From Pediococcus acidilactici (GTDB lineage Bacteria > Bacillota > Bacilli > Lactobacillales > Lactobacillaceae), in assembly GCA_024970065.1 (NCBI GenBank), contig CP103908.1, positions 682,001 through 746,000 of the forward strand: a DNA stretch of 64,000 nt. The letters are read 5' to 3'. A program made the position numbers and the translations under genes. Shown here in pieces: positions 51,344 through 64,000 of this stretch (position 1 is the first letter of the stretch; each line of letters begins with the position of its first letter). Under the pieces are notes generated by a model. That model was given only the letters and a program-made list of their open reading frames with translations, had not been told where the DNA came from and did no database searches.

Positions 51344-52681
51344 ATGGAAGAAAATCTATCTACTAAACCAAAAACTAAAGGGATTGTTTACCTATTTGCT
51401 ATTTTAGGAGGATTTGCCGGGTTACTTTACGGATACGATTCGGGAGCAATTTCGCTAGCACTGCCATCGATTACTACTGCTTTTGGGCTAGATTCGGTTC
51501 AAAAGGGGCTGGTGGTTAGCTTTCTTCTTTTCGGCGCGTTGCCTTCAATCGTCGTATTTACTGCGTTAGAAAAGAAAATTGAGCGACGCAACGTCTTGAT
51601 TGTCGCTGGGGTGGTATTTTTAGCCGGAAGCTTGTTAAGCGCAATTGCAACGGGAACTTTTTTCCTCATGATGGCACGTTTCGTTTTAGGAATTGCGGCC
51701 GGAATTGCGAATATGTACGGTTTGATTTATTTATCAGAGCTAGCGCCAGCCCACATTCGGGGATTAATGTCTTCACTTTACCAGTTAAGTGTTAACGTGG
51801 GGATTTTGGTTGCGTATGCAGTTGGAGCCTACAATTTACCACAAGATAACTGGCGGTGGACTTTAGGATTAGGGGTGGTGCCAGCCCTGATACTGACGAT
51901 TGGGATGGTAATGAGTCCCCAAAGTCCCCGGTGGTTGATCCGGGATGGTAAAGTTGAACGAGCGCGAAAAGTTTTGACTAAAGTCCGGTTCACCAACACG
52001 GAAGTAGAATCTGAAATTAAAGATATCCAAAATAGCCTGAAAACAAAAGAAGCGGGTCTAAATGAACTATTTGGCACATTCCGGCCAGCCCTTACCTTAC
52101 TAATTATTTTAACTATTTTTCAAGTGTTTACCGGAATTAATGCCGCCGTTTACTATGCACCAGAAATTTTTCATAATTTAGGAATGGCAAATTCTAGCAT
52201 TGTCGCTGATTTTGGGGTGGGAATTGCTTTAGTCGTCTCGACCTTCGTTTCTTTGCCCTTCATTGACAAGTTGGGACGAAAAAAATTATTAGAAATCAGT
52301 TTGGGTGGTCAAGTCCTACCAGCGATTGCGCTATGTATTTGGTCAGACAACGTAATTATCGCGGTTATTTCGATTTTTCTGTACGTGTTTATGTTCGGTT
52401 TTGGGCTTGGTCCGGTGTTTTGGTCTTACGTTCCAGAAATCCTGCCTTTAAAAGCGCGTGCTTTAGGGATGGGAGTAATCACCTTTACTCAATATCTTTT
52501 AAACGCTATTTTCTCGTTGATTTTTCCAATTTGTTTAAGCATTGTCGGAATAAACATTTTCTATTTCTTCGCATTTTTATCCGCTTTTTCGGTTTGGTAC
52601 ATCCATAAGTATGTTTTAGAAACTAAAGGACGGTCGTTAGAAGAAATTGAAGCCTATTGGGAATCAAGAAAGAAGGAATGA
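51344..52681 (+). CDS. MFS sugar porter, probable L-fucose importer
   Basis: This 445-residue sugar porter has twelve membrane segments. Visible motifs are LYGYDSGAISLALP, LIYLSELAPAHIRG, SPQSPRWLIRDG and the C-terminal ETKGRSLEEIE. It belongs to the same family as araE at 20051 and not to the FucP family used by E. coli. The location two bases after the kinase and before fucU supports L-fucose import by proton symport. It overlaps no gene; fucU starts 3 bases after its stop codon. Confidence 0.84.
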   Translation: MEENLSTKPKTKGIVYLFAILGGFAGLLYGYDSGAISLALPSITTAFGLDSVQKGLVVSFLLFGALPSIVVFTALEKKIERRNVLIVAGVVFLAGSLLSAIATGTFFLMMARFVLGIAAGIANMYGLIYLSELAPAHIRGLMSSLYQLSVNVGILVAYAVGAYNLPQDNWRWTLGLGVVPALILTIGMVMSPQSPRWLIRDGKVERARKVLTKVRFTNTEVESEIKDIQNSLKTKEAGLNELFGTFRPALTLLIILTIFQVFTGINAAVYYAPEIFHNLGMANSSIVADFGVGIALVVSTFVSLPFIDKLGRKKLLEISLGGQVLPAIALCIWSDNVIIAVISIFLYVFMFGFGLGPVFWSYVPEILPLKARALGMGVITFTQYLLNAIFSLIFPICLSIVGINIFYFFAFLSAFSVWYIHKYVLETKGRSLEEIEAYWESRKKE

Positions 52682-52683
52682 GA

Positions 52684-53121
52684 ATGTTAAATCGAGTACC
52701 TAAAAATCTATCGCCGGAGCTAATAAAGACGCTAATGGAAATGGGACACGGGGATGAAATCTTGTTGGCGGATGCCAATTATCCTGCGGTGTCCAATAAC
52801 AAAAAAATTATTCGAGCAGATGGTTTAATGATTCCAGAATTACTTGATTCAATTTTAAAATTGATGCCGTTAGATAGCTATTCTGATTACCAAGCAATTT
52901 TCATGCAAGTCGTACCTGGAGATCAGAACGTTCCCAATGGTACCCCACCGATTTGGGAGAAGTACCGGGATAGCATTGGAAAAAGCTTTAAAAATTATAC
53001 GGTAAAACAAATTGAACGATCCGCTTTTTACGAGTATTCGCACCAATGCTTTGCCATTGTACAGACGGGCGAAAAAGCACTGTATGGTAATTTAATTTTG
53101 CGAAAAGGCGTAGTGATGTAA
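52684..53121 (+). CDS. fucU: L-fucose mutarotase
   Basis: This 145-residue protein of the RbsD/FucU family interconverts anomers of L-fucose. It shows LIKTLMEMGHGDEILLADANYP, with the catalytic histidine, and the tyrosine-containing HQCFAIVQTGEKALYGNLILRKG near the end. The ATG at 52684 is preferred: AGAAGGA lies about 6 bases before it, and the upstream in-frame start overlaps the porter gene. It ends the fuc operon. Confidence 0.92.
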   Translation: MLNRVPKNLSPELIKTLMEMGHGDEILLADANYPAVSNNKKIIRADGLMIPELLDSILKLMPLDSYSDYQAIFMQVVPGDQNVPNGTPPIWEKYRDSIGKSFKNYTVKQIERSAFYEYSHQCFAIVQTGEKALYGNLILRKGVVM

Positions 53122-53406
53122 AATTCCTCTTTTGAGAAATAAATCAGTCATCACAAGCTAATTCTGAAAGATGAAGACCCTATCTAATTACGATTTTTCG
53201 TAGTTGGGTAGGGTCTTTATAAAAGAAAAAGATTATTCTAATTTAAAAAGCGTATTTAGAGTAATTACAGATTGATTATTTAGCTAAGAAGATAAAAACC
53301 ATAGTGATTTTGTCTTTTTATTATGTAGTTTACATACTGCCACAGGTATTTTTATGTTTTTAAATTGGTGATACGTATAGAATTTGAGCTATATTTTAAC
53401 TTTAAT
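53122..53406. other. Spacer holding the fuc operon terminator
   Basis: A strong terminator lies at 53174-53220: AAGACCCTATCTAATTACGA pairs with TCGTAGTTGGGTAGGGTCTT. The rest is AT-rich with no supported gene. Confidence 0.7.
53174..53220 (+). terminator. Terminator of the fucose operon
   Basis: A 20-bp stem with a T4 loop and G-T pairs lies 53 bases after the fucU stop and is followed by a short T-run. Confidence 0.85.
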
Positions 53407-53451
53407 TTGACTTAAAAACAGCATTATAGTTTAATATACCCATGGAGGTAT
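53407..53451 (+). promoter_or_regulatory. Promoter and probable CstR operator of the sulfur operon
   Basis: TTGACT (53407-53412) and TTTAAT (53430-53435) are 17 bases apart. Directly after the -10 lies the interrupted palindrome ATACC-CATGGA-GGTAT (53436-53451), a layout like operators of CsoR/CstR repressors. It covers the likely transcription start and the ribosome binding site GGAGG. Confidence 0.65.
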
Positions 53452-53460
53452 TTTGAAAGA

Positions 53461-53772
53461 ATGAAACTACCATTTTGGGGATATAATACTATTAATATTA
53501 GTGCAATTGCAGAACGTAAAGAGGATTTCGAACTAATTGATGTACGTACACCTGTTGAATTTCGGAGCGGACATATTAATTATGCAAAGAACGTTCCCTT
53601 AGATAAAATTAATCGATTTTCTGGCAGAAAAGATCAACCCATTTATGTGATTTGCCAATCGGGGATGCGCAGTAAGCGGGCGGCTAAATTTTTGCGTAAC
53701 CAAGGCTATGATGCTAAAAGTGTTCGTGGAGGAATGAGCCAATGGGATGGCCCGGTAAGAAAGGGGAAGTAA
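53461..53772 (+). CDS. Single-domain rhodanese
   Basis: This 103-residue rhodanese has the active Cys65 in the loop CQSGMRS and the N-terminal ELIDVRTPVEFRSGHI. It carries a persulfide on the cysteine and moves sulfane sulfur to acceptors. It is first in an operon with a flavoprotein, another rhodanese and a CstR-like repressor, and stops 1 base before the flavoprotein start codon. About ten hydrophilic residues precede the domain; there is no membrane anchor. Confidence 0.88.
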   Translation: MKLPFWGYNTINISAIAERKEDFELIDVRTPVEFRSGHINYAKNVPLDKINRFSGRKDQPIYVICQSGMRSKRAAKFLRNQGYDAKSVRGGMSQWDGPVRKGK

Positions 53773-53773
53773 A

Positions 53774-55438
53774 ATGAGTAAAGTAGTTATTGTTGGCGGG
53801 GTTGCCGGTGGTATGTCAGCAGCGACCCGGTTACGCCGATTAGCGGAAGATGCTGAGATTATCGTTTTTGAGAAGGGACCGTACGTCTCGTTTGCCAATT
53901 GCGGATTGCCGTACCACCTTTCGGGAATGATTCCAGAAAGAACTTCACTAATGGTTCAAAGCCCGGAAGCATTATGGAACCGGTTCAGAATCGACGCATG
54001 GCCCAACCACGAAGTTATTAGCATTCACCCTCAAGAAAAAATAGTGGAAGTACGGCATCGAGGAAAGGTTTTCCAAGAAAGTTACGATGAATTAATATTA
54101 GCGACCGGAGCTAGCGCAATTATTCCGCAAATTGAGGGGCTTGCACAGGCTGAAAATGTGCATACCTTAAGGAACATTCCCGATATGGACGAGATTTTAA
54201 ACCAGTTGGAGCAAGGAGTACGAAACGCAACGATAGTAGGAGCGGGATTTATCGGCGTGGAAATGGTTGAAAATTTACATAAGCGGGGAATTCACGTTGC
54301 TTTGGTAGAAAAAGCTGCCCACGTTTTGCCTAACCTGGATGTTGAAATGGCAGCTTTTGTGGAAGAAGAGTTGTTAAAAAATAACGTAGATCTTCACCTT
54401 TCTAAGTCAGTTGCCGAAATCAAGGATAATGGAACTCGCCTTGTTTTAGATGACGGAACTCAGATTAACTCCGACCTAACGATCCTATCCGTTGGAGTTC
54501 AACCCAATAGTAGACTCGCAGAAAATGCTGGTCTTCAGTTAGGTTTGAAAAAGGGCATTATGGTGGATGAAAACTATGAAACGAGCGTGAAGCATGTTTA
54601 TGCGGTTGGTGACGTAGCGGTGACCAAGCAGCAGATTACAAACGAGCCAACCTTAATTCCGTTAGCTTCTCCAGCAAATCGACAAGGGCGGCAAGTTGCG
54701 GATGTGCTAGCTGGTTTACGCCGGATAAATCAGGGGAGTATCGGTACGGCAATTGTGCGAGCGTTTAATTTGAGTACGGCTTCCACCGGGTTAAATGAGC
54801 ATGCGGCACGACAGAAATTCGCTAATGTCTTAGTTGCTCACGTGAGCGGAACGGACCATGCGACCTACTATCCTGATAGTCAGGCGATGTGGCTTAAATT
54901 AATTTTCGATGGAAAGACGGGGCAAATTTATGGTGCTCAAGCAGTTGGCGCGAATGGTGTCGATAAACGAATCGACGTGTTAGCGACGGCAATTAAAGGG
55001 AATCTTTCGGTGTTTGATTTACCAGAGCTAGAATTAACTTATGCACCGCCGTTTGGCACGGCAAAAGACGTTGTTAATATGGTTGGTTACGTTGCAACCA
55101 ACCTGGTTGAAGGATTAAGTAAAAATATTCAATGGCATGAGTTATCTGCTGAATTAGCAAAGGGCAAACGGTTACTTGATTTGCGTAATCCAGAAGAAAT
55201 TGAAAGGGACGGCCGGATTAGGGGAGCAACCAACATTTCTTTAAAACAATTGCGAAATCAAATTGGTCGGTTGGACCCCCGCCAGGAATATATTCTTTAC
55301 TGTCAAAGCGGGCTACGAAGCTACGTTGGAGAACGGATTTTACGACAAAAAGGATTTAAAGTTGAAAATTTAGATGGAGCATTTGGGTTGTATAAAATGA
55401 TAATGAAAGAGGAAGTTGAACGAATTGAAGAGTATTAA
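53774..55438 (+). CDS. CoA-disulfide reductase-like flavoprotein with rhodanese domain
   Basis: This 554-residue protein has a pyridine nucleotide-disulfide oxidoreductase part (about 1-445) fused to a rhodanese domain (about 455-550). FAD binding is seen in VVIVGGVAGGMSAATRLRRL, the redox Cys43 in FANCGLPYHLSG, NAD binding in ATIVGAGFIGVEM and FAD binding in VYAVGDVA. The rhodanese cysteine is Cys510 in YCQSGLRS. This is the CoADR-RHD architecture, known to reduce CoA disulfide, CoA persulfide or polysulfide with NAD(P)H. Together with two rhodaneses and a CstR-like repressor, a role in clearing reactive sulfur is likely. Confidence 0.9.
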   Translation: MSKVVIVGGVAGGMSAATRLRRLAEDAEIIVFEKGPYVSFANCGLPYHLSGMIPERTSLMVQSPEALWNRFRIDAWPNHEVISIHPQEKIVEVRHRGKVFQESYDELILATGASAIIPQIEGLAQAENVHTLRNIPDMDEILNQLEQGVRNATIVGAGFIGVEMVENLHKRGIHVALVEKAAHVLPNLDVEMAAFVEEELLKNNVDLHLSKSVAEIKDNGTRLVLDDGTQINSDLTILSVGVQPNSRLAENAGLQLGLKKGIMVDENYETSVKHVYAVGDVAVTKQQITNEPTLIPLASPANRQGRQVADVLAGLRRINQGSIGTAIVRAFNLSTASTGLNEHAARQKFANVLVAHVSGTDHATYYPDSQAMWLKLIFDGKTGQIYGAQAVGANGVDKRIDVLATAIKGNLSVFDLPELELTYAPPFGTAKDVVNMVGYVATNLVEGLSKNIQWHELSAELAKGKRLLDLRNPEEIERDGRIRGATNISLKQLRNQIGRLDPRQEYILYCQSGLRSYVGERILRQKGFKVENLDGAFGLYKMIMKEEVERIEEY

Positions 55439-55718
55439 AGCAACGGATTTAATGAAGAAAATTGAAAATAAGAAAGTAAACGTAATTGATGTGCGGGAAA
55501 GTTTTGAATTTAAGATGGGACACATTCCAGCTGCAAAGAACCTACCCTTGAGTAGCTTACAAGACACCGCCAAAAGCCTAGATAAAAATCGGACTTACTA
55601 TGTCATTTGTCAATCGGGAGCACGTTCAGCCAATGCTTGTGGTTATTTAAACCAACTTGGATTTGATATAATCAATGTTGAAGATGGAATGAATGCTTGG
55701 CAAGGAGATAGGGAATAA
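55425..55718 (+). CDS. Second single-domain rhodanese
   Basis: This rhodanese of about 97 residues shows NVIDVRESFEFKMGHIPAAKNLPL and the active-site loop CQSGARS (cysteine codon 55608-55610). It overlaps the end of the flavoprotein gene. The start is TTG at 55425 or TTG at 55416. AGAGGAAG lies at 55408-55415, and spacing favours 55425. It follows the same pattern as the rhodanese at 53461 and probably passes sulfur to or from the flavoprotein. Confidence 0.85.
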   Translation: MKSIKATDLMKKIENKKVNVIDVRESFEFKMGHIPAAKNLPLSSLQDTAKSLDKNRTYYVICQSGARSANACGYLNQLGFDIINVEDGMNAWQGDRE

Positions 55719-55979
55719 ATGGCTACGTGTGATCAACAAATTTTAAACCGATTAAAGCGGGCAGAAGGACAGATTCGTGGAATTCAAAAAATGATTGCGG
55801 ATGGAAAAGAATGCTCGGAAATAATTCCACAATTAAACGCGGTGAAGTCTAGCGTGGATCGAATTAAAGGAATCATGGTTGCTGAAAATCTAAAAAATTG
55901 TTTAGAAAATCCAACCAACGACAAGGAAGCTCAAGATGAGAAAATCGCTCGAGCAATTGAAATGATTGTAAAAAAATAA
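55719..55979 (+). CDS. cstR: CsoR/FrmR-family repressor, CstR-like persulfide sensor
   Basis: This 86-residue all-helical repressor of the CsoR/RcnR family begins directly after the rhodanese stop. Cys32 (KECSEII) and Cys61 (ENLKNC) correspond to the two conserved cysteines. The copper-sensor histidine four residues before the second cysteine is replaced by Asn57. That pattern fits CstR, which senses persulfides and polysulfides, and not CsoR, which senses Cu(I). An additional cysteine is at position 4. Being last in a rhodanese/CoADR operon, it probably autoregulates it through the palindrome at 53436-53451. Confidence 0.85.
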   Translation: MATCDQQILNRLKRAEGQIRGIQKMIADGKECSEIIPQLNAVKSSVDRIKGIMVAENLKNCLENPTNDKEAQDEKIARAIEMIVKK

Positions 55980-55995
55980 ATTTTAGATGGCATAT

Positions 55996-56050
55996 TAAAA
56001 AGACGAAGTTTAGAATTCGAGTTGAATTCAACTTCGTCTTTTTTAGCTAA
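55996..56050. terminator. Bidirectional terminator between cstR and fucO
   Basis: AAAAGACGAAGTT pairs with AACTTCGTCTTTT around GAATTC-containing inner arms, with T-runs on both sides. Confidence 0.88.
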
Positions 56051-56055
56051 AATTT

Positions 56056-57225
56056 TTATTTTGCGTCATAGGCAGCTTGGAATAACGCAACGATTTGTTC
56101 CTTCGTGGCTTTCCGCGGATTTGAGAAAGCATTGCCATCTTTTAATGCGTTTTCGGCCATTAGTTCGAAATCTTTGGGGTCGGCGCCAAGATCTTTAATA
56201 CTCCGCGGAATACCCACGTCGTCGTTAAGTTGTTGCATAGCATCGATTGCTTTATCGGCAGCTTCTCGAACGGAAAGCCCGTCGATATTTTCGCCCATCG
56301 CAACCGCTAAATCGGCAAACCGTTCGGGGCAAGCAATAATGTTAAAGCGTTCCACGATTGGAAGTAGTACTGCACAACAAACACCATGCGGAGCGTCATA
56401 TTGGCCGCCTAATTGATGAGCCATTGCGTGCACGTAACCAAGGTCAGCATTATTAAAGGCCATTCCGCCAAGCATTTCTGCTTCAACCATCTTTGTTCGG
56501 GCTTCGAGATTGTCCCCATTAGCTACCGCTTCGCGTAAACTTTCTTCGACTAAGCGAATTGCTTGGAGACATTGTCCATCCGTAATATCATTGTGATTAG
56601 TCGAAACATAGGGTTCGATTGCTTGTACAAAGGTGTCCATTCCGGTGGCAGCGGTTAATTTTGGTGGTACGCCCAGCATTAATTTCGGATCGTTAAACGA
56701 AACTAGTGGGACGTTCCGCCAAGAAACTACGACAAACTTTAAATGGGTTTCTTCATTAGTGATCACACAGTGACGAGTTAGCTCGGAAGCTGTTCCCGCA
56801 GTTGTGTTCACGGCAATCAGTGGTGGAAGTGGGTTATCTAAAGTTTCGATTCCCGCCAATTTAGTAATGTCATCGCCGTTCGTTAAAATTATGCCAGTTC
56901 CTTTCCCAGTATCATGGGCAGAGCCACCACCCACGGTAATGATGCCATCACAGTCGTTATCTAAATAGACTTGTTTGGCTTCCTTAATGTTCCTTACCTT
57001 AGGATTCGGTTCAACTCCGTCATAAATAGCGAAATCTACATGAGCTTCCTTAAGAGAATTAACGGTTTGCTCTACTGGACCGTCTGCCATTTTTTCTAAA
57101 AATTGATCAGTTACTAATAATGGTTTCTTCATATTCACCATTTTTGCGCGTTCACCAATTTTATTAATTACACCTGCGCCAAAAAAGTTAACGCTCGGCA
57201 TTAAAAAATCAAAGTTTTCTTTCAT
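56056..57225 (-). CDS. fucO: Iron-containing alcohol dehydrogenase, probable lactaldehyde reductase
   Basis: This 389-residue group III dehydrogenase has the NAD-binding GGGSAHDTGKG, a metal-binding aspartate near TFVQAIEPYVS and the histidine-rich VHAMAHQLGGQYDAPHG. Family members reduce lactaldehyde (FucO), 3-hydroxypropionaldehyde or other aldehydes with NADH. Lactaldehyde reduction to 1,2-propanediol is likely because fucose and rhamnose pathways flank it. 1,3-propanediol dehydrogenase is the main alternative. GAGGAGG precedes a GTG (57228) and an ATG (57225) by 5 and 8 bases; I choose ATG. Confidence 0.8.
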   Translation of the reverse strand: MKENFDFLMPSVNFFGAGVINKIGERAKMVNMKKPLLVTDQFLEKMADGPVEQTVNSLKEAHVDFAIYDGVEPNPKVRNIKEAKQVYLDNDCDGIITVGGGSAHDTGKGTGIILTNGDDITKLAGIETLDNPLPPLIAVNTTAGTASELTRHCVITNEETHLKFVVVSWRNVPLVSFNDPKLMLGVPPKLTAATGMDTFVQAIEPYVSTNHNDITDGQCLQAIRLVEESLREAVANGDNLEARTKMVEAEMLGGMAFNNADLGYVHAMAHQLGGQYDAPHGVCCAVLLPIVERFNIIACPERFADLAVAMGENIDGLSVREAADKAIDAMQQLNDDVGIPRSIKDLGADPKDFELMAENALKDGNAFSNPRKATKEQIVALFQAAYDAK

Positions 57226-57577
57226 CACGAGGACCTCCTCAGGTACGCTTTAATAACTTTGTACACTTTTATGGTAGCACTTTAATGAAAACGCTTCAAT
57301 GAATAATCTGTAGAAAAGCATAGCGATAACTAATCGGATTCAGTAGATAAATTTTAACGTATTTAAGTTTCACAGGGTGTTATTAATCAGCAACGATCAA
57401 TAATAAAGACTAGTAATGAGCAATCTGATTTTACCTATTAAACTTGTTAATTATACCGCAATCGGGTAATATGAATGGGTTTGCCAGCCTGACTGAACAC
57501 ACGCAGGAAGGTTGAAAAGGGGATTAAATCAACAATTGAAGCAATTGCAAAGAGCAATAATTTTGTTGGAGTGCTTT
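57226..57577. other. Control region of fucO and upstream region of the recombinase
   Basis: On the minus strand, TTGAAG (57299-57294) and TACCAT are 17 bases apart, a candidate fucO promoter. The -35 overlaps the cre-like box. The rest, up to the inverted site at 57578, has no gene; the recombinase promoter must lie here, but I could not define it. Confidence 0.45.
57286..57299 (-). promoter_or_regulatory. cre-like site of fucO
   Basis: Read on the minus strand, TTGAAGCGTTTTCA is a cre-like box overlapping the proposed -35 of fucO. Confidence 0.55.
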
Positions 57578-57595
57578 TTTATGGTACACCCTAAA
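57578..57595 (+). repeat. Recombination or operator site 1 (near-palindrome)
   Basis: TTTATGGT-AC-ACCCTAAA has 8-bp arms around a two-base core. It is the inverted counterpart of the site at 58329-58346, with 17 of 18 positions equal after reverse complementation. It lies 26 bases before the recombinase start. Confidence 0.7.
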
Positions 57596-57621
57596 AGTTC
57601 AAAAAATTAGGAGGAAGAAAA

Positions 57622-58218
57622 GTGAAATACGGGTATGCAAGAGTGAGCTCAAAAGATCAAAACCTTGCACGACAGTTAGCAAGGTTAAAAGAAGTCGGCG
57701 TTAATCGAATATACAAAGAAAAGATTTCAGGCGCGATTAATGACCGCCCAGAACTTGCCAAAGTGCTGGATGTTTTAAAGCCTGGTGACGAACTGTATGT
57801 ATTAGAAATGGAGCGTCTAGGAAGAAATAATAAGTTTTTGACCCATATTTTTATGGAAGTTTATTTGCGGGAAGCAAAGCTGATTATCCTTGATTTACCA
57901 ACCTTTGACGATATTGATGATGAAAATATGCGGAATTTTTTACAGAATATTTTTATTGAAACCAAGAAATTTCAAGCAGAGTCAGAACGGCAACGAATCC
58001 GAATCCGCCAACGACAAGGAATTGAATTGGCTAAAAAACGCGGTGTATATAAAGGGCGTCCAGTTTTGTATGGTCCAGACGTTAAAAATCCGAGTCGCCG
58101 GAAGATTTATTTTGATATCCGTGACAATCTAGAAGCAGGCAAAAGTATTATGGCAATCAAAAGAAAATTAGGGGTTAGTCGCACTTTAATTTACCGAATT
58201 AAATCTGAAATGTCATGA
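57622..58218 (+). CDS. Serine recombinase, resolvase/invertase family
   Basis: This 198-residue small serine recombinase starts MKYGYARVSSKDQN, with catalytic Ser9, and has EMERLGRNNKFLTHIF and, after the E-helix, the C-terminal HTH (about 165-195, SIMAIKRKLGVSRTLIYRIK). The length equals Pin/Hin/Tn3-resolvase-type enzymes, which cut both strands at a two-base core in palindromic sites. Start GTG at 57622 follows AGGAGG by about 5 bases. Two matching near-palindromic sites bracket the gene. It may invert its own segment, or bind these sites as an autoregulator. The terminal stretch between domains has an insertion with KNPSRRK. Confidence 0.9.
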   Translation: MKYGYARVSSKDQNLARQLARLKEVGVNRIYKEKISGAINDRPELAKVLDVLKPGDELYVLEMERLGRNNKFLTHIFMEVYLREAKLIILDLPTFDDIDDENMRNFLQNIFIETKKFQAESERQRIRIRQRQGIELAKKRGVYKGRPVLYGPDVKNPSRRKIYFDIRDNLEAGKSIMAIKRKLGVSRTLIYRIKSEMS

Positions 58219-58328
58219 AATTAACACTGTTAACAATTTACTTAACGTAAGTGATATGATTTTGGTGTACAATTAGATAAAATGTTAGCGACGGTTTAAG
58301 GGTTAAATGCGGTTATAATTGATGTCTT

Positions 58329-58346
58329 TTTAGGGTGTACCCTAAA
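58329..58346 (-). repeat. Recombination or operator site 2 (perfect-arm palindrome)
   Basis: TTTAGGGT-GT-ACCCTAAA has perfect 8-bp arms. Its core GT is the reverse complement of the AC core at site 1, so the two sites are inverted to each other. It lies 50 bases before the AP2/zinc-ribbon gene. A TATAAT at 58314-58319 sits just upstream, inside the bracketed segment. Confidence 0.7.
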
Positions 58347-58396
58347 GAGACACTTTCAAACAGAAAATAAGATACCAAAATTTGGGGAGGATTACG

Positions 58397-59035
58397 ATGA
58401 GAATCCGTATCGATATCACTGGAAAACGTTTTGGAAAACTTGTAGCACAGTACCCAGTTAGGTCGTCTAAGACCGGTAAATTACAATGGCATTGTCAATG
58501 CGATTGTGGTAGGGCGACTAACGTTGACTTACAACATTTAAAAACTGGTAATACTAGAAGCTGTGGGTATTGTACAAGGGTACGCTATGATTTAACAGGA
58601 AAACGCTTTGGCCGGTTAGTGGTAACGGGACGGGCTGATCGTAAAAGTGCGTCGGGAAACTATTATTGGACTTGTCGATGTGATTGTGGACGTCAAGTGG
58701 ACGCGGAAAGCTATCTGCTTCGGCACGGAAAAGTTAAGAGTTGTGGATGTTTACGAAAAGAAAAGTCTGCCGAACGTTTGAGAAGTAACCAAAAAATAAC
58801 TGCTAAAATGGGGGCAAAGGATGCATTTCGAGATTCCAACGGTAATCCGATTCAATCGGTAGTTGCTAGCTCACGTAACCAATCTGGAGTAGTTGGAGTT
58901 TCCTTTAATTCTACTGGTGGAAAGTGGGTTGCTCGCATGATGGTTAACGGTGAAATGGTATTAAACGAAGCTTACAATGATTTTGATGACGCGGTTGCTG
59001 CTCGGCGAAAAGCAGAATTAAAGTATTTAAAGTGA
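58397..59035 (+). CDS. AP2-domain protein with two zinc-ribbon repeats
   Basis: This protein of about 212 residues has two copies of a repeat. Each begins with DxTGKRFGxLV, and each has a four-cysteine ribbon: CQCDCG...SCGYC (about residues 35-65) and CRCDCG...SCGCL (about 90-120). A C-terminal AP2-like DNA-binding domain follows (about 155-210, SGVVGVSFNSTGGKWVARM then AYNDFDDAVAARRKAEL). Such AP2 modules usually occur with HNH nucleases in phages and mobile DNA, but no nuclease motif is seen here. The start is ATG 58397 after GGGGAGG. It is probably a DNA-binding protein linked to the neighbouring recombinase. Confidence 0.78.
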   Translation: MRIRIDITGKRFGKLVAQYPVRSSKTGKLQWHCQCDCGRATNVDLQHLKTGNTRSCGYCTRVRYDLTGKRFGRLVVTGRADRKSASGNYYWTCRCDCGRQVDAESYLLRHGKVKSCGCLRKEKSAERLRSNQKITAKMGAKDAFRDSNGNPIQSVVASSRNQSGVVGVSFNSTGGKWVARMMVNGEMVLNEAYNDFDDAVAARRKAELKYLK

Positions 59036-59060
59036 TTTATAAAAAATGATTTTGACAACG

Positions 59061-59101
59061 TAAAAAGGAGTTTTCAGTTTTAATACTGGAAACTCCTTTT
59101 G
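59061..59101. terminator. Bidirectional terminator after AP2 gene
   Basis: AAAAGGAGTTTTCAGT pairs with ATACTGGAAACTCCTTTT. It separates the AP2 gene from the leftward dehydrogenase. Confidence 0.88.
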
Positions 59102-59125
59102 GTTATCTTCAATTATTTAAATGAA

Positions 59126-60247
59126 TTATTTGCCCGGAACGTAGTCAGGGTCAATAATCAAAACTGGTTTAATCACTTCGCCGGAACGGGATGCTTCGTT
59201 AGCTTGCTTAATATCTTCAAATTTGAAGAATTTCTCAGTTTTATCAAAATCAAACATGCCAGCTTTATAGAATTCAATTAAACGAGGAATGTCAATTTGA
59301 GGAATGGAATCGCCCATGTTGACCCCCACAATCTTCTTGTCATCTACACAAAGGTCGTTCCAAGTATCTAAATCGATGTGATTTGGTGTGACGGCAATGG
59401 TTGCGGTAGTGCCACCTTGGGTGAGGACTTGGATAGATTGTTCCATCACTTGGGTGATTCCAGTGGTGTCGACGGCCCAGTTAACTCCGCGACCATCCGT
59501 GAGCTTCTTGACTTCTTCAACTACGTCTACGTTGCGACTATTAATCACGTCGGTAGCACCCAATTCCTTAGCCAATTCTAGCCGAGAATCCACAATATCA
59601 ATTCCGATTACCTTAGTGCACCCAGAAATTTTACCAGCCATCATGGCAGCCAGTCCAACCGCTCCGGTACCAAAAACGGCAATTGTGTCACCAGGCCGTG
59701 GTTTGAGAGTATTAAGCACGGTTCCTGAACCAGTAACGTATCCACAACCAAGCGGGCCTAATTTACGAAGATCGAGTTCGTCATCGACCTTAACAGCGTT
59801 CCGTTCCCGGACCACGGTGGTGGTGGTAAAGGAGCTTTGATCAAACATGTCCGCAACGTGTTCACCATTTTCAGTGAAGTGATTAGAACCATCGGGACGT
59901 ACCCCAGAAAGATTGTTGGCAGCGTAATTACGGCATTGGGTAGGGATACCTCGTAAACAATTATCACAATTACCACAAGCGTAGAAACTTAAAACTACGT
60001 GATCACCAGGTTTAAATTGGGTAACTTCTGGGCCAACTTTTTCAACAATTCCTGCGCCTTCATGGCCAAGAATAATTGGATAATCAATTACTGCGTCACC
60101 AACTCGCAAGGCTTCGTCGGAGTGACAAATCCCACTAGCAACCATGTGAACTTGAATATCATCCGCACCCATGGGAGCCAGTTCAATATCGTCTTTGATG
60201 GTAAAATCTGCGTTTTGTTTTTCAACAACTGCTGCTTTAATTTTCAT
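59126..60247 (-). CDS. Zinc-dependent alcohol dehydrogenase
   Basis: This 373-residue medium-chain dehydrogenase has catalytic zinc ligands in SGICHSDEALR and GHEGAGIVE, the structural zinc motif CGNCDNCLRGIPTQC, and NAD binding in VFGTGAVGLAAM. CGYVTGSGTVLNT resembles aryl-alcohol dehydrogenases. The substrate is uncertain. In a region rich in deoxysugar genes it may reduce lactaldehyde or another aldehyde, but a broader role is equally possible. AAAGGAGA precedes the ATG. A cre-like site lies upstream. Confidence 0.86.
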   Translation of the reverse strand: MKIKAAVVEKQNADFTIKDDIELAPMGADDIQVHMVASGICHSDEALRVGDAVIDYPIILGHEGAGIVEKVGPEVTQFKPGDHVVLSFYACGNCDNCLRGIPTQCRNYAANNLSGVRPDGSNHFTENGEHVADMFDQSSFTTTTVVRERNAVKVDDELDLRKLGPLGCGYVTGSGTVLNTLKPRPGDTIAVFGTGAVGLAAMMAGKISGCTKVIGIDIVDSRLELAKELGATDVINSRNVDVVEEVKKLTDGRGVNWAVDTTGITQVMEQSIQVLTQGGTTATIAVTPNHIDLDTWNDLCVDDKKIVGVNMGDSIPQIDIPRLIEFYKAGMFDFDKTEKFFKFEDIKQANEASRSGEVIKPVLIIDPDYVPGK

Positions 60248-60301
60248 AGTAACAAATCTCCTTTGTGCTTTTATGTTTTGACAGGTTCATTATTTCACAA
60301 A

Positions 60302-60315
60302 AGAAAGCGTTTGCA
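60302..60315 (-). promoter_or_regulatory. cre-like site of the zinc dehydrogenase
   Basis: On the minus strand TGCAAACGCTTTCT matches cre well, about 55 bases upstream of the start codon. Confidence 0.6.
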
Positions 60316-60397
60316 AAGAGAAAATTTGATGAATTTCTTTCAGAAAAAGGTGAACATTAATGCATTAGATGAAGAAAAATTTTCAAAAAAATTAAAA

Positions 60398-61372
60398 TTA
60401 ACGATCGTCTCCTGGTTTACCATGGTAGAATTCTTCGTATTTTTTATAAAAAAAGGTTTTATTTGTGATACCAACTTGGTGCATGATTTCGGTAATGGGA
60501 AGGTTAGTTGAAGAAATTAGATTACGAGCTTGAATCAGACGTTGTTGCGTGACTGCTTGCGTGAACGTTTTTCCGGTAACTTCTTTGAACAGGTTACTAA
60601 GATAATTTTTACTGTATTTGTACTTTTGTGCTAAATCATCAAGTCGAATTGTTTGATAGTTTTCGGCAATTTGCTTAAGGATTTTGGTGATTAGGATTTG
60701 TTGCTTGGTAGGATGCTGTCCAATGTCGAGAGGATAGTGGCGGACAAGAAGAACAAATAAAATTTGAAGATAGGATTTAATGATTGAGTTAGAAAAATCT
60801 CGTTTTAAGTAATATTCTTCGATAATTTTATCTAAAACGTTAGAAATTTCGTGGCCAGATTTATGTTTAAATAATAAAAAATTTTTCGTGCCAGTTGCAT
60901 CGTCAATGGCTCGATCGATTAAGAATTCATGCAAAATACTGTTACTACGCCGAATATCATTTAATAAGTTGATGCTAATGACTTGTCTCTTGAAAAGAAT
61001 GTTAACCAAGATATCGTGATCATCTAACGCAGCGATCTGGTGCTTTGCGCCAATATCTAAAAGCAATAAATCCCCCGTTTGTAGTTCAATTCGTTGATCA
61101 TTAACAATCTCGGTTGCATGACCTTGAAGCATGTAATTCATTTCAAAAAAGGTGTGCGTGTGTGCGGGGTAGGGAGCATAGCGGTTATGACGGCTAATGT
61201 AAACATCCCGATTCTTAAATAAATTATTATTTAGAGTTTGAATCTTATCATCGCTTAATTCACCAGTTTGAAGAACGTAAGATGGCATGTCTTCGACAAA
61301 GGAGTGCTTAATCTTCTGCTTTTCTTCAATCATATTAGTTTGTGACAGCATGTGCAAGGCTCTAGGATTCAT
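60398..61372 (-). CDS. AraC-family regulator of the rhamnose cluster
   Basis: This regulator of about 324 residues has an N-terminal cupin (YAPYPAHTHTFFEMNYMLQG, LQTGDLLLLD) and the C-terminal AraC HTH pair (about 215-315). It shares the PAHTHxFxExNYM motif and layout with the regulator at 38210-39202. ATG 61372 is chosen: AGGAGG lies 7 bases upstream, while the longer reading overlaps that site. It is divergent from an MFS porter and rhamnulokinase and probably activates them when rhamnose is present. Confidence 0.86.
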   Translation of the reverse strand: MNPRALHMLSQTNMIEEKQKIKHSFVEDMPSYVLQTGELSDDKIQTLNNNLFKNRDVYISRHNRYAPYPAHTHTFFEMNYMLQGHATEIVNDQRIELQTGDLLLLDIGAKHQIAALDDHDILVNILFKRQVISINLLNDIRRSNSILHEFLIDRAIDDATGTKNFLLFKHKSGHEISNVLDKIIEEYYLKRDFSNSIIKSYLQILFVLLVRHYPLDIGQHPTKQQILITKILKQIAENYQTIRLDDLAQKYKYSKNYLSNLFKEVTGKTFTQAVTQQRLIQARNLISSTNLPITEIMHQVGITNKTFFYKKYEEFYHGKPGDDR

Positions 61373-61432
61373 CAAAATACCTCCTGTAAATATGATACTT
61401 TTCATGAAGAACTAGGATATTTTATCACCCTT

Positions 61433-61446
61433 TGTAAACGATTACA
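61433..61446 (+). promoter_or_regulatory. cre site before the rhamnose operon
   Basis: TGTAAACGATTACA fits the cre consensus fully and is almost a perfect palindrome. It lies between the divergent AraC gene and the MFS porter. Confidence 0.72.
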
Positions 61447-61490
61447 ATTCAGGATGTAAGCAAATACAAATGATTTGGGGAGGTATTGAA

Positions 61491-62756
61491 ATGAGTGAAG
61501 AACAAGGTTCGGTGAAATCAACCATTGCCGTGTCAATCACAAATTTTTTAGATTCGGGTTCAATTGTTGCCGGAGCCAGTGGATTGACATTTTGGACAAA
61601 GGAACTAGGTCTTTCTAGTTTCCAAGTGGGGCTTTTAGGAGCGTTAAGTGCCAACGCATTTGGCTCGGCGATCGGTGCGTTGATCGGTGGACATCTATCG
61701 GATAAGTTTGGTCGAAAAGTAATTTACACTTATGACATGTTAGTTTACATGTTAGGAACTGCTATTATTGCTTTTTCAATTAATTTTCCAATGCTTTTGG
61801 CCGGCTTTTTGATTACGGGGATTGCCGTAGGAGCTGGAGTACCCGCGTCATGGACTTATATTTCAGAAACGTCAGGTTCAACTGATCGAGCAAAGAATAT
61901 TGGGATTTCCCAATTTGCTTGGTCAATGGGACCGGCAATTATTTTTATTGCGGGGACCATTTTAGCTCCCATCGGTTTGCTGGGAAATCGACTTTTATTC
62001 ATTTTCTTAACGATTGTGGCGTTTATTGCGTGGCGATTGCAAAGTAAATTGGAAGAGTCTCAAGTTTTTGAAGAGCAAAAACAGGCCGAAAAAGACAGTG
62101 GGATTACCTCACATCCGTATAAAGATTTATTTTCTAACATGGTTAACATCAAATCACTGCTCTTTTTGATTGGTGTTTACATGTTCTGGAATTTAGTTGC
62201 TGGAGCAATGGGATTCTTCATGCCGTATGTTTATGAAACGGTTGGGGGATTAACCAACATGCAAGCTAACTTGTTGCAAGCGGTACTTTGGATTTTAACT
62301 GCTTTGGGTACCTATGTCGGATTTGCTAAATTTGGTGATCGAGCAAACCACCGAATTTTCTACTTTGTTGGGGCAGCAATGGCGGCAGCTTCATGGATTG
62401 TATTAACTTATGCGGGAATGAATTGGACCAGCTTATGGCTTTTCGTAATTCTTTGGGGAGTGTCTGCTGGAATTGGTGCGCAAGCTTGGTATGCATTATG
62501 GGCTACTGAATTGTTCCCGACTCGCTATCGGGCGGGGTCGCAAGGCGTAATGTTTTTCGTTGTGCGAGGATCCGCTGGAATATGGTCAATTATTTTTCCA
62601 ACTATCTTAACCAGCATGGGCTTTAAGGCTGCCGGAACTTTCATGATTGCACTATTGATTGTTTCCTTAGTGATTGGGACGGTTTGGACACCGCATACTC
62701 GAGGAAAATCTTTAGAGCAAATTAGTAAGGAACGTTACGGTAATGACCAAGTTTAG
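61491..62756 (+). CDS. MFS transporter, probable L-rhamnose importer
   Basis: This major facilitator has about 421 residues and twelve membrane segments, with [13 protein letters not shown] after segment 2 and [14 protein letters not shown] in the second half. The start is ATG 61491, 7 bases after GGGGAGG. It is followed by rhamnulokinase and preceded by an AraC regulator, so L-rhamnose import by proton symport is likely. It is of the same broad type as the porter at 39316. Confidence 0.82.
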
Positions 62757-62781
62757 TTTGAAAAGAAGGTTGGTGGAAAAG

Positions 62782-64000
62782 ATGAAGACATACGTTGCCG
62801 TTGACATCGGCGCATCCAGTGGCCGGCTGATGCTAGCTCAACCCACCGCGGATGGGGGGCTTACTTTAGAAGAGGTCCATCGATTTACTAACGGTTTCAA
62901 ACTTAAAGATGGACATGACCGTTGGGATATTGACCATTTGATTCACGAGATTCTCGTGGGGTTAACCAAGGTCAAGGCGCGGGGGATTAACGCCATTGAA
63001 TTAGGCATTGACACTTGGGCAGTTGACTATGTTTTAGTAGGTTTTAACGGTCAGAAGTTAGAAGATCCAATCAGTTACCGGGACCGGCGAACTTCCCAGG
63101 CGATTACCGAATTAACCAGTGAATTGCCGAAGGAATACATTTATGAAAAAACTGGAATCCAGTTTCAAGACTTTAACACGTTGTATCAGCTTTACAAGAC
63201 TGATCGAGCATTGCTAGCTAAAACGGACAAAATCATGATGATTCCCGACTACATTGGTTACGTACTAACTGGGAATGCAGTTACTGAAATTACCAATGCG
63301 TCCACCACGCAGATGTTAAATTTACGGGTCGGTTTGTTTGATAAAGACTTGTTGGCCAAAGTTAACGTCTCTCCAGACCAATTTCCTCGGTTAGTTGAAT
63401 CAGGAACAGTTTTGGGCAACTTAGGTCATAAATGGCATCGCCAATTCGATTTGCCAGAAACTGAAGTGATCACGGTAGCGACCCATGACACGGCTTCAGC
63501 AGTAGTGGGAACTCCGGGCCAGGGCGATCGCTGGGCATTCTTAAGTTCGGGGACCTGGTCGCTTCTGGGCACCGAGCTGAACGTTCCGGAAAATGGTTTG
63601 GCTGCCTTCCATGAAAACTATACAAACGAATGGGGAGCTTACGGAACTTACCGTTTCTTAAAGAACATCATGGGGTTGTGGATTGCGCAATGCGTTCGTC
63701 ACGAATTAGCAGATGAAATTAGTTTTGGAGAACTTGCTAAGCAAGCGGAAGCAGTCCGCCCGTTCCAGCAGTTCATCGACATTAATGATCCCCGATTTGT
63801 TAATCCAGCAAACATGACGGCCGAACTGAAAAATTACTGTCGGGAAACTCAACAACCAGTTCCAGAAACGCCGGGAGAACTTTTCCAAGCGATTTACAGT
63901 AATTTATCGTTATATTACGCAAATGAGCTTCAAAAATTAGATCAAATTTTAAACTATCATATTGAACGACTTAACATCGTTGGCGGGGGCAGCAACGTTG
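62782..64000 (+). CDS. rhaB: Rhamnulokinase, 5' part
   Basis: About 406 codons are present and the gene runs off the window. This FGGY kinase starts [19 protein letters not shown] and shows [35 protein letters not shown] and GGGSNV at the edge. It would phosphorylate L-rhamnulose at C1. The translation was made from the sequence; no stop interrupts it. It follows the MFS porter by 25 bases, with a weak ribosome site (GGTGG). It is a relative of the kinase at 49839. Rhamnose isomerase and rhamnulose-phosphate aldolase may follow beyond the window. Confidence 0.93.

Follow-up and report, generated by a model that had tools for sequence, protein, structure and literature searches.

Inverted sites around a Sin-like serine recombinase gene suggest a self-inverting DNA switch in Pediococcus acidilactici and related Lactobacillaceae

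In Pediococcus acidilactici, a small serine recombinase gene lies between two inverted copies of a short site and is followed by an AP2-like gene (Table 1). This raises the question of whether the unit is a DNA switch that inverts itself. In the window, i.e., the whole stretch of 64,000 nucleotides analysed here, this is the reading that we favour, with a probability of about 0.8. The recombinase would bind two 26-bp sites, cut at their AC/GT cores and flip the segment of about 751 bp that holds its own gene. As the unit stands in the window, the AP2-like gene is downstream of the recombinase and co-directional with it; in the flipped form, both genes would be divergent, and the flip would turn transcription of the AP2-like gene up or down. 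We infer that the recombinase is active in this strain, that its inversion moves a promoter and that the AP2-like gene, with its regulon, is affected.

Table 1. Features of the recombinase unit (positions in the window).
Feature	Position	Strand	Remarks
Candidate external promoter, TTGTTA-17-TAATAT	57444..57472	+	Left of site 1; weak, 8/12, by eye; a similar one in P. acidilactici L037
Left recombination site, 12+2+12	57574..57599	+	Core AC at 57586-57587; 18-bp core site 57578-57595; same site in P. acidilactici L037
Predicted invertible segment	57587..58337		About 751 bp core to core; recombinase gene inside; opposite orientation relative to the AP2-like gene in L038 and L039
Serine recombinase gene, Sin-like (PF00239)	57622..58218	+	198 aa; GTG start; located within the segment predicted to invert
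Block similar in P. acidilactici L037	58240..58273	+	Dyad ACTTAACGTAAGT at 58240-58252, TACAAT at 58268-58273; putative promoter/regulatory element or degenerate accessory site
Right recombination site	58325..58350	-	GT core at 58337-58338, reading AC on the opposite strand; 18-bp core site 58329-58346
AP2-like protein gene	58397..59035	+	Encodes 212 aa; N-terminal part with two repeats containing cysteines (by eye), AP2-like C-terminus; predicted target of the switch

The left 18-bp site, TTTATGGT-AC-ACCCTAAA, ends 26 bases 5' of the GTG start of the recombinase gene, and the right one, TTTAGGGT-GT-ACCCTAAA, begins 110 bases 3' of its stop codon. They are inverted and identical at 17 of 18 positions, so that the positions, spacing, AC and GT cores and degree of match given in the preliminary description are borne out. 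The value of 17 is also the top match of all inverted 18-mers between 57229-57621 and 58219-58396. In 100 dinucleotide shuffles, the top match was 12 (four times), 13 (61 times), 14 (32 times) or 15 (three times) and never exceeded 15/18; the pair is thus beyond chance. The number of matches is ordinary, since four are found in the window at up to three mismatches and 25 of 100 shuffles reach four; what is unusual is the closeness of the sites to each other and the bracketing of the gene.

In the window's own genome (1,995,187 bases in one contig), the 18-bp pattern with up to two mismatches gives nine matches in six places, versus 1 and 1 for the reversed pattern. These places are the pair described above, at 0-1 mismatch, and four others at two mismatches. 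The search for more copies of the site, proposed in the preliminary description, therefore gave no second close pair in this genome at up to two mismatches but did give one, with a different core, in P. acidilactici DSM 20284 (see below). Comparison with relatives suggests that the full site may cover 26 bp (12+2+12). The site of P. pentosaceus L009 reads CTTTTTTAGGGT-AC-ACCCTAAAAAAA.

Other pediococci carry the unit in two orientations. Recombinases 96%, 80% and 79% identical to that of the window are found in P. acidilactici DSM 20284 (L037), P. pentosaceus DSM 20336 (L038) and a Pediococcus MAG (L039, whose contig ends inside the recombinase). In the window and in L037, the site, the recombinase, the second site and the AP2-like gene follow each other in one direction. 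In L038 and L039, the AP2-like gene is on the strand opposite to the recombinase and divergent from it, its start being about 59 bp and 70 bp, respectively, from the site adjoining the start of the recombinase. This layout is as expected if the segment has been inverted, and it is the form that the preliminary description had proposed to look for in related genomes. The far-side neighbours differ between the P. acidilactici and P. pentosaceus units, so that this comparison of orientations uses the AP2-like gene as its marker; the spacers between this gene and the site do not align (scores of 12 and 15 versus up to 22 for shuffles, 51 of the 59 bases of L038 being used). The left site of P. pentosaceus DSM 20336 (L038:3940-3959) has two extra core bases (ACAC), which may lock the switch in this strain.

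A clean inversion distinguishes Paucilactobacillus vaccinostercus (L041) from a metagenomic contig (L320). The recombinase of L041, about 50% identical to that of the window, is flanked by inverted sites whose starts are 841 bp apart, and the unit adjoins the gene of a surface protein with a KxYKxGKxW signal. The segments of L320 and L041 align in the same orientation, with 92% identity across 874 columns, whereas their flanks align reversed. On one side, the reversed alignment comprises 208 columns (85%) adjoining the segment and 199 columns (88%) farther out; on the other, it is a single stretch of 126 columns (70%). Segment and flank alignments share 29 bases, i.e., the site and a few bases beyond. 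Furthermore, the left site of L320 is a composite of two L041 arms, the outer one of the right site and the inner one of the left site, which places the exchange within a 23-bp interval around the core. The self-inverting switch first suggested in the preliminary description is thus supported both by the opposite orientations in L038 and L039 and by an exchange inside a site.

The association of such recombinases with inverted sites extends to other Lactobacillaceae. At E 1e-44, 71 of 397 genomes contained a total of 81 matches to the recombinase; all 81 flanks, including L037 and L038, were used, and six other loci, two of them duplicates, brought the set to 87. A rule blind to the core detected a site pair in 18 of these loci (17 distinct) and none in 69. 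Cores are complementary in all 18 paired loci (AC/GT, AA/TT, AG/CT or TT/AA), but many of the 17 distinct loci are related and do not amount to as many independent trials. Other approaches showed pairs that this rule had overlooked in L233, L236, L265 and L298, the last two with a diverged motif. In L258 and L300, a generic scan detected an inverted match of one arm only, the cores not being complementary. A sensitive scan of 22 loci (seven whose recombinase has a non-aromatic residue 52, 12 others lacking a pair and three known) revealed pairs in L265 and L298, the latter already in the generic scan; among the 12, it found the one-armed match of L258 alone. The recombinases of L265:2900-4644 and L298:1776-3365 have sortase-like neighbours (by eye).

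Controls were run outside this set. With the core-blind rule, neither a further 73 recombinase loci (L044-L116; 498,074 bases) nor 53 viral loci (306,253 bases) yielded a pair. The exact site patterns occur in 8 and 1 stretches of viral contigs. Similar DNA was found in one plasmid record, over 6% of the query. At the protein level, the best identity to the recombinase among the plasmid matches listed is 51%, and the 204 phage records are all below 60%.

The alternative that survives best is that both sites are operators through which the protein, no longer recombining, represses its own gene and the AP2-like gene, the unit being a frozen switch. The spacing suits repression, as 26 bp separate site 1 from the start of the recombinase gene and 50 bp separate site 2 from the AP2-like gene downstream, and a change in the active site could point the same way. 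All 21 inverted-pair rows conserve Ser9, Arg7, Gln18, Arg66 and Arg69 (Sin numbering). In the LDRLGR motif, the catalytic Asp (Asp65) is replaced by Glu in the Pediococcus recombinases (window, L037, L038 and L039) and in L041; six of the 21 rows, one of them a duplicate, have this Glu. The single orientation seen within one species (window and L037) and the disrupted core of the left site of P. pentosaceus also suit operators. However, the orientation of the recombinase relative to the AP2-like gene differs between Pediococcus species; L041 has the same Glu, yet its close relative L320 is inverted; and cores stay complementary though they differ among loci, which repression does not need. We consider this explanation improbable. 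An operator role could be additional to inversion.

It could also be proposed that the AP2-like gene and the recombinase form a mobile element, the orientations seen in Pediococcus resulting from separate insertions or rearrangements. This would fit the different neighbours of the P. acidilactici and P. pentosaceus units. In the same way, dha is found without adjoining adh in other pediococci. A dha match at E <= 1e-100 is present in six of 12 Pediococcus genomes, including those of the window and of P. acidilactici; the dha stretches of the four others have no adh, recombinase or AP2 match, three of them being informative and the fourth stopping some 100 bp short of dha on its upstream side, and no empty site was found. 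By contrast, no transposase is seen between dha and adh in the window (by eye), and in L041 and L320 the near flanks are kept and the site-bounded segment alone flips. Since two other families of loci, in genera g47 and g20, behave likewise, this explanation appears slightly less probable still than operators.

In genus g47 (14 genomes), six genomes have a closely related recombinase (69-100%) that adjoins a segment of 164-190 bp flanked by inverted sites. An EAL gene follows in five of the six (tested in L159 and L233, by eye in the others); in genome G320, a WxL- and DUF916-looking pair takes its place (by eye). The segment is inverted relative to the recombinase-EAL axis between G265 and G307 (local score of 104 inverted versus 41 in the same orientation, shuffles <=36), between G152 and G293 (201 versus 22) and between G152 and G098 (208 versus 22). 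The segments of G293 and G098 share the same orientation (340 versus 31), and that of G320 has no clear likeness to any other. Near the segment edge, a promoter is found, with the form TTGACA-17-TATAGT in G152, G293 and G098; in G265 and G307, it reads TTGACA-17-TAGTAT. By orientation, it is directed toward EAL in G152 and G307 and toward the recombinase in G265, G293 and G098. In G320, the recombinase and an inverted AA/TT pair (L236) are located beside flagellar-type genes as well as the WxL/DUF916-like pair (by eye).

In genus g20 (15 genomes), five genomes have a recombinase that is at least 84% identical and lies inside the segment. In G230, it is in the other orientation relative to the kept flank, which scores 111 against G261 (shuffles <=28), 123 against G246, 96 against G145 and 31 against G168. 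Both G230 contigs end within the segment, and no far flank was detected adjoining it; a 74% stretch is on another contig. It should be added that relatives do not always differ in orientation, as G174 and G151 of genus g46 agree (182 versus 26). Another arrangement is seen in G249 (L278:3303-4443), where one site of an inverted TT/AA pair is in coding sequence. The start of a surface protein gene, with its signal peptide, is inside the segment, the rest of a surface protein gene is outside, and GKPTYP occurs on both sides; inversion could fuse the two. More generally, a pattern search of the 397 Lactobacillaceae genomes with up to one mismatch gave a match in 16, some of them in unrelated genes.

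The protein belongs to the lineage of a resolvase. The recombinase of the window matches PF00239 (E 3.6e-27), and its nearest solved structure is not Hin or Gin but Sin (PDB 2r0q, 144.6 bits, E 3.1e-41, residues 3-196), deposited as "Putative transposon Tn552 DNA-invertase bin3"; chain 4m6f, named DNA-invertase, gives 57.2 bits (E 2e-14). According to PMC2764113, Sin from Staphylococcus aureus is selective for direct repeats; a site II with a regulatory function and an architectural protein are also involved, and F52 and R54 of Sin make the contact between the site I and site II dimers. This paper also names a Sin substrate resF-AC, whose AC core is also that of the window sites. Unlike the direct repeats of Sin, the window sites are inverted, and F52 and R54 are replaced by V and K, so that the residues of the regulatory interface are absent. 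A resolvase of the Sin lineage would have become an invertase with the loss of contact residues that tie Sin to the resolution of direct repeats.

A single similar dyad within 220 bp upstream, which fits the expectation for resolvases, accompanies 34 of 54 recombinases without a pair versus two of 54 control stretches downstream. This count and the kinship with Sin would suit a unit whose sites serve plasmid or transposon resolution, the inverted pair being a by-product of a second res site, but this is very unlikely given two sites in inverted orientation, V and K in place of F52 and R54, and the absence of replicon genes from the ORFs in 52000-64000, judged by eye. In the resolvase-like relatives (L274, L276, L277, L281, L284 and others), the right arm of the upstream dyad, ACCCTATTGTA, is kept and the left arm is variable, as if sites had swapped partners at the core.

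The interface residues follow the presence of a pair in the whole set. At Sin position 52, an aromatic residue is found in none of 22 inverted-pair recombinases versus 52 of 57 others; at position 54, Arg is found in none of 21 inverted-pair rows, and Arg or His in one of 22 inverted-pair recombinases versus 54 of 57 without a pair, the latter group having been searched unevenly for pairs. The association of residue 52 amounts to four to six independent pairs, for which a sign test is not significant. Several recombinases with a non-aromatic residue 52 have no detected pair (L241, L250, L259, L268 and L040, the last being the same as L242). On a quick recombinase tree, in which several branches are long, the inverted-pair label has to change six times and the aromatic residue three times. 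This suggests, though not firmly, that inversion may have arisen more than once among Sin-like recombinases. Position 77 was rejected as a telling change, Ile being present in 12 of the 21 rows with an inverted pair and in 45 of the 60 others.

The gene that would be switched encodes what was called an AP2 protein in the preliminary description. Its C-terminus is indeed AP2-like, but the Pfam AP2 match is below the cut-off (E 0.14; a shorter relative reaches 2.5e-5, likewise below the cut-off) and AP2-like is the safer name. Nine such proteins align with 35 invariant columns, and 11 of 12 Pediococcus genomes encode them. The protein is probably a DNA-binding regulator. AP2-like genes are present on 16 of the 87 surveyed recombinase stretches (two rows being one locus), including the four Pediococcus units, L240, which has a site pair and an insertion-type gene between the recombinase unit and the AP2-like gene (by eye), and L040, which has no detected pair. 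They are also found near seven resolvase-like recombinases without a pair (L274, L276, L277, L279, L285, L290 and L292), which weakens the case for AP2 as the proper target. The AP2-like gene would therefore be a plausible target of the switch, not a specific one. In genome G180 (L167:6210-6916), a single AC-core site is found upstream of an AP2-like gene, followed by the gene of a large secreted-looking protein (by eye); this stretch has no recombinase of the Sin-like family.

As for the promoter, the TATAAT hexamer that the preliminary description assigned to the AP2-like gene does exist (58314-58319) but was rejected, as it is absent at the aligned place in P. acidilactici L037. A consensus promoter scan of 57220-59130 gave six matches versus a shuffle mean of 5.5, and no strong promoter was found in the segment of the window (four matches at 9/12); a clear promoter is found only in the EAL-type relatives (TTGACA-17-TATAGT). 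The candidates for the moved promoter in the window are the TACAAT block and the external promoter of Table 1.

A second pair of sites suggests that one enzyme could serve more than one switch. In P. acidilactici DSM 20284 (G004), an inverted pair with AA/TT cores and 208 bp between the sites (L156:5510-5753) is followed after 36 bp by a second AP2-like gene (L156:5790-6251), without an adjoining recombinase. The single recombinase of the window clade in this genome is 35 kb from this pair, and the other match is 29% identical. We infer that the recombinase may act in trans on the AA/TT pair, the cores preventing crossing with the AC/GT sites. At the scale of the family, Lactobacillaceae could hold a set of Sin-derived invertases that lost the resolvase interface and switch the phase of surface proteins, EAL/WxL operons, sortase-like genes and AP2-like regulators, one enzyme possibly serving several switches separated by their cores (AC/GT and AA/TT in P. 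acidilactici). To this broader proposal, we give even odds.

Several known systems resemble this unit. The Hin/hix flagellar phase switch of Salmonella has its recombinase gene inside the segment, inverted dyads and a 2-bp core. The unit of the window shares these features, together with a small serine recombinase and a neighbouring gene as target, but its recombinase is closer to Sin, its target is an AP2-like protein and its relatives use different cores at different switches. The Hin system also has a Fis enhancer, as indicated in PMC3798978. Among NCBIfam models, the match of the window recombinase to the Mpi-type PRK13413 (E 3e-13) reaches 49.9 bits versus a cut-off of 272, and that to XisF is slightly better but also far below its cut-off (57.4 versus 375). 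Mpi-type master DNA invertases are single serine recombinases acting on several invertible promoters, a likeness with the one enzyme suggested for the two P. acidilactici pairs. The invertible promoters, or invertons, reportedly described by Jiang et al. in 2019 are also comparable, being short segments between inverted repeats that flip and are often promoters.

In a read-based inversion survey (PMC5903667), one signature is given for Bacilli (n = 22 samples, 18 species), unlike the set proposed here in Lactobacillaceae with a Sin-like enzyme. The main text of PMC11892184 does not mention lactobacilli. Among the matches listed and the accessible portions of the open-licence literature, no description of such a switch in Lactobacillaceae was found, which is not proof of novelty. 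The mechanism is already known; the lineage, the targets and the use of the cores would be what is new.

If this reading is true, phase variation by DNA inversion would be a common trait in food and probiotic lactic acid bacteria. The passage from resolvase to invertase would constitute a natural experiment with named residues. Furthermore, core dinucleotides may keep the several switches of one enzyme from crossing, which makes them a system to study. Finally, a phase-variable AP2-like protein would, if true, offer a handle on the function of AP2-like proteins in bacteria.
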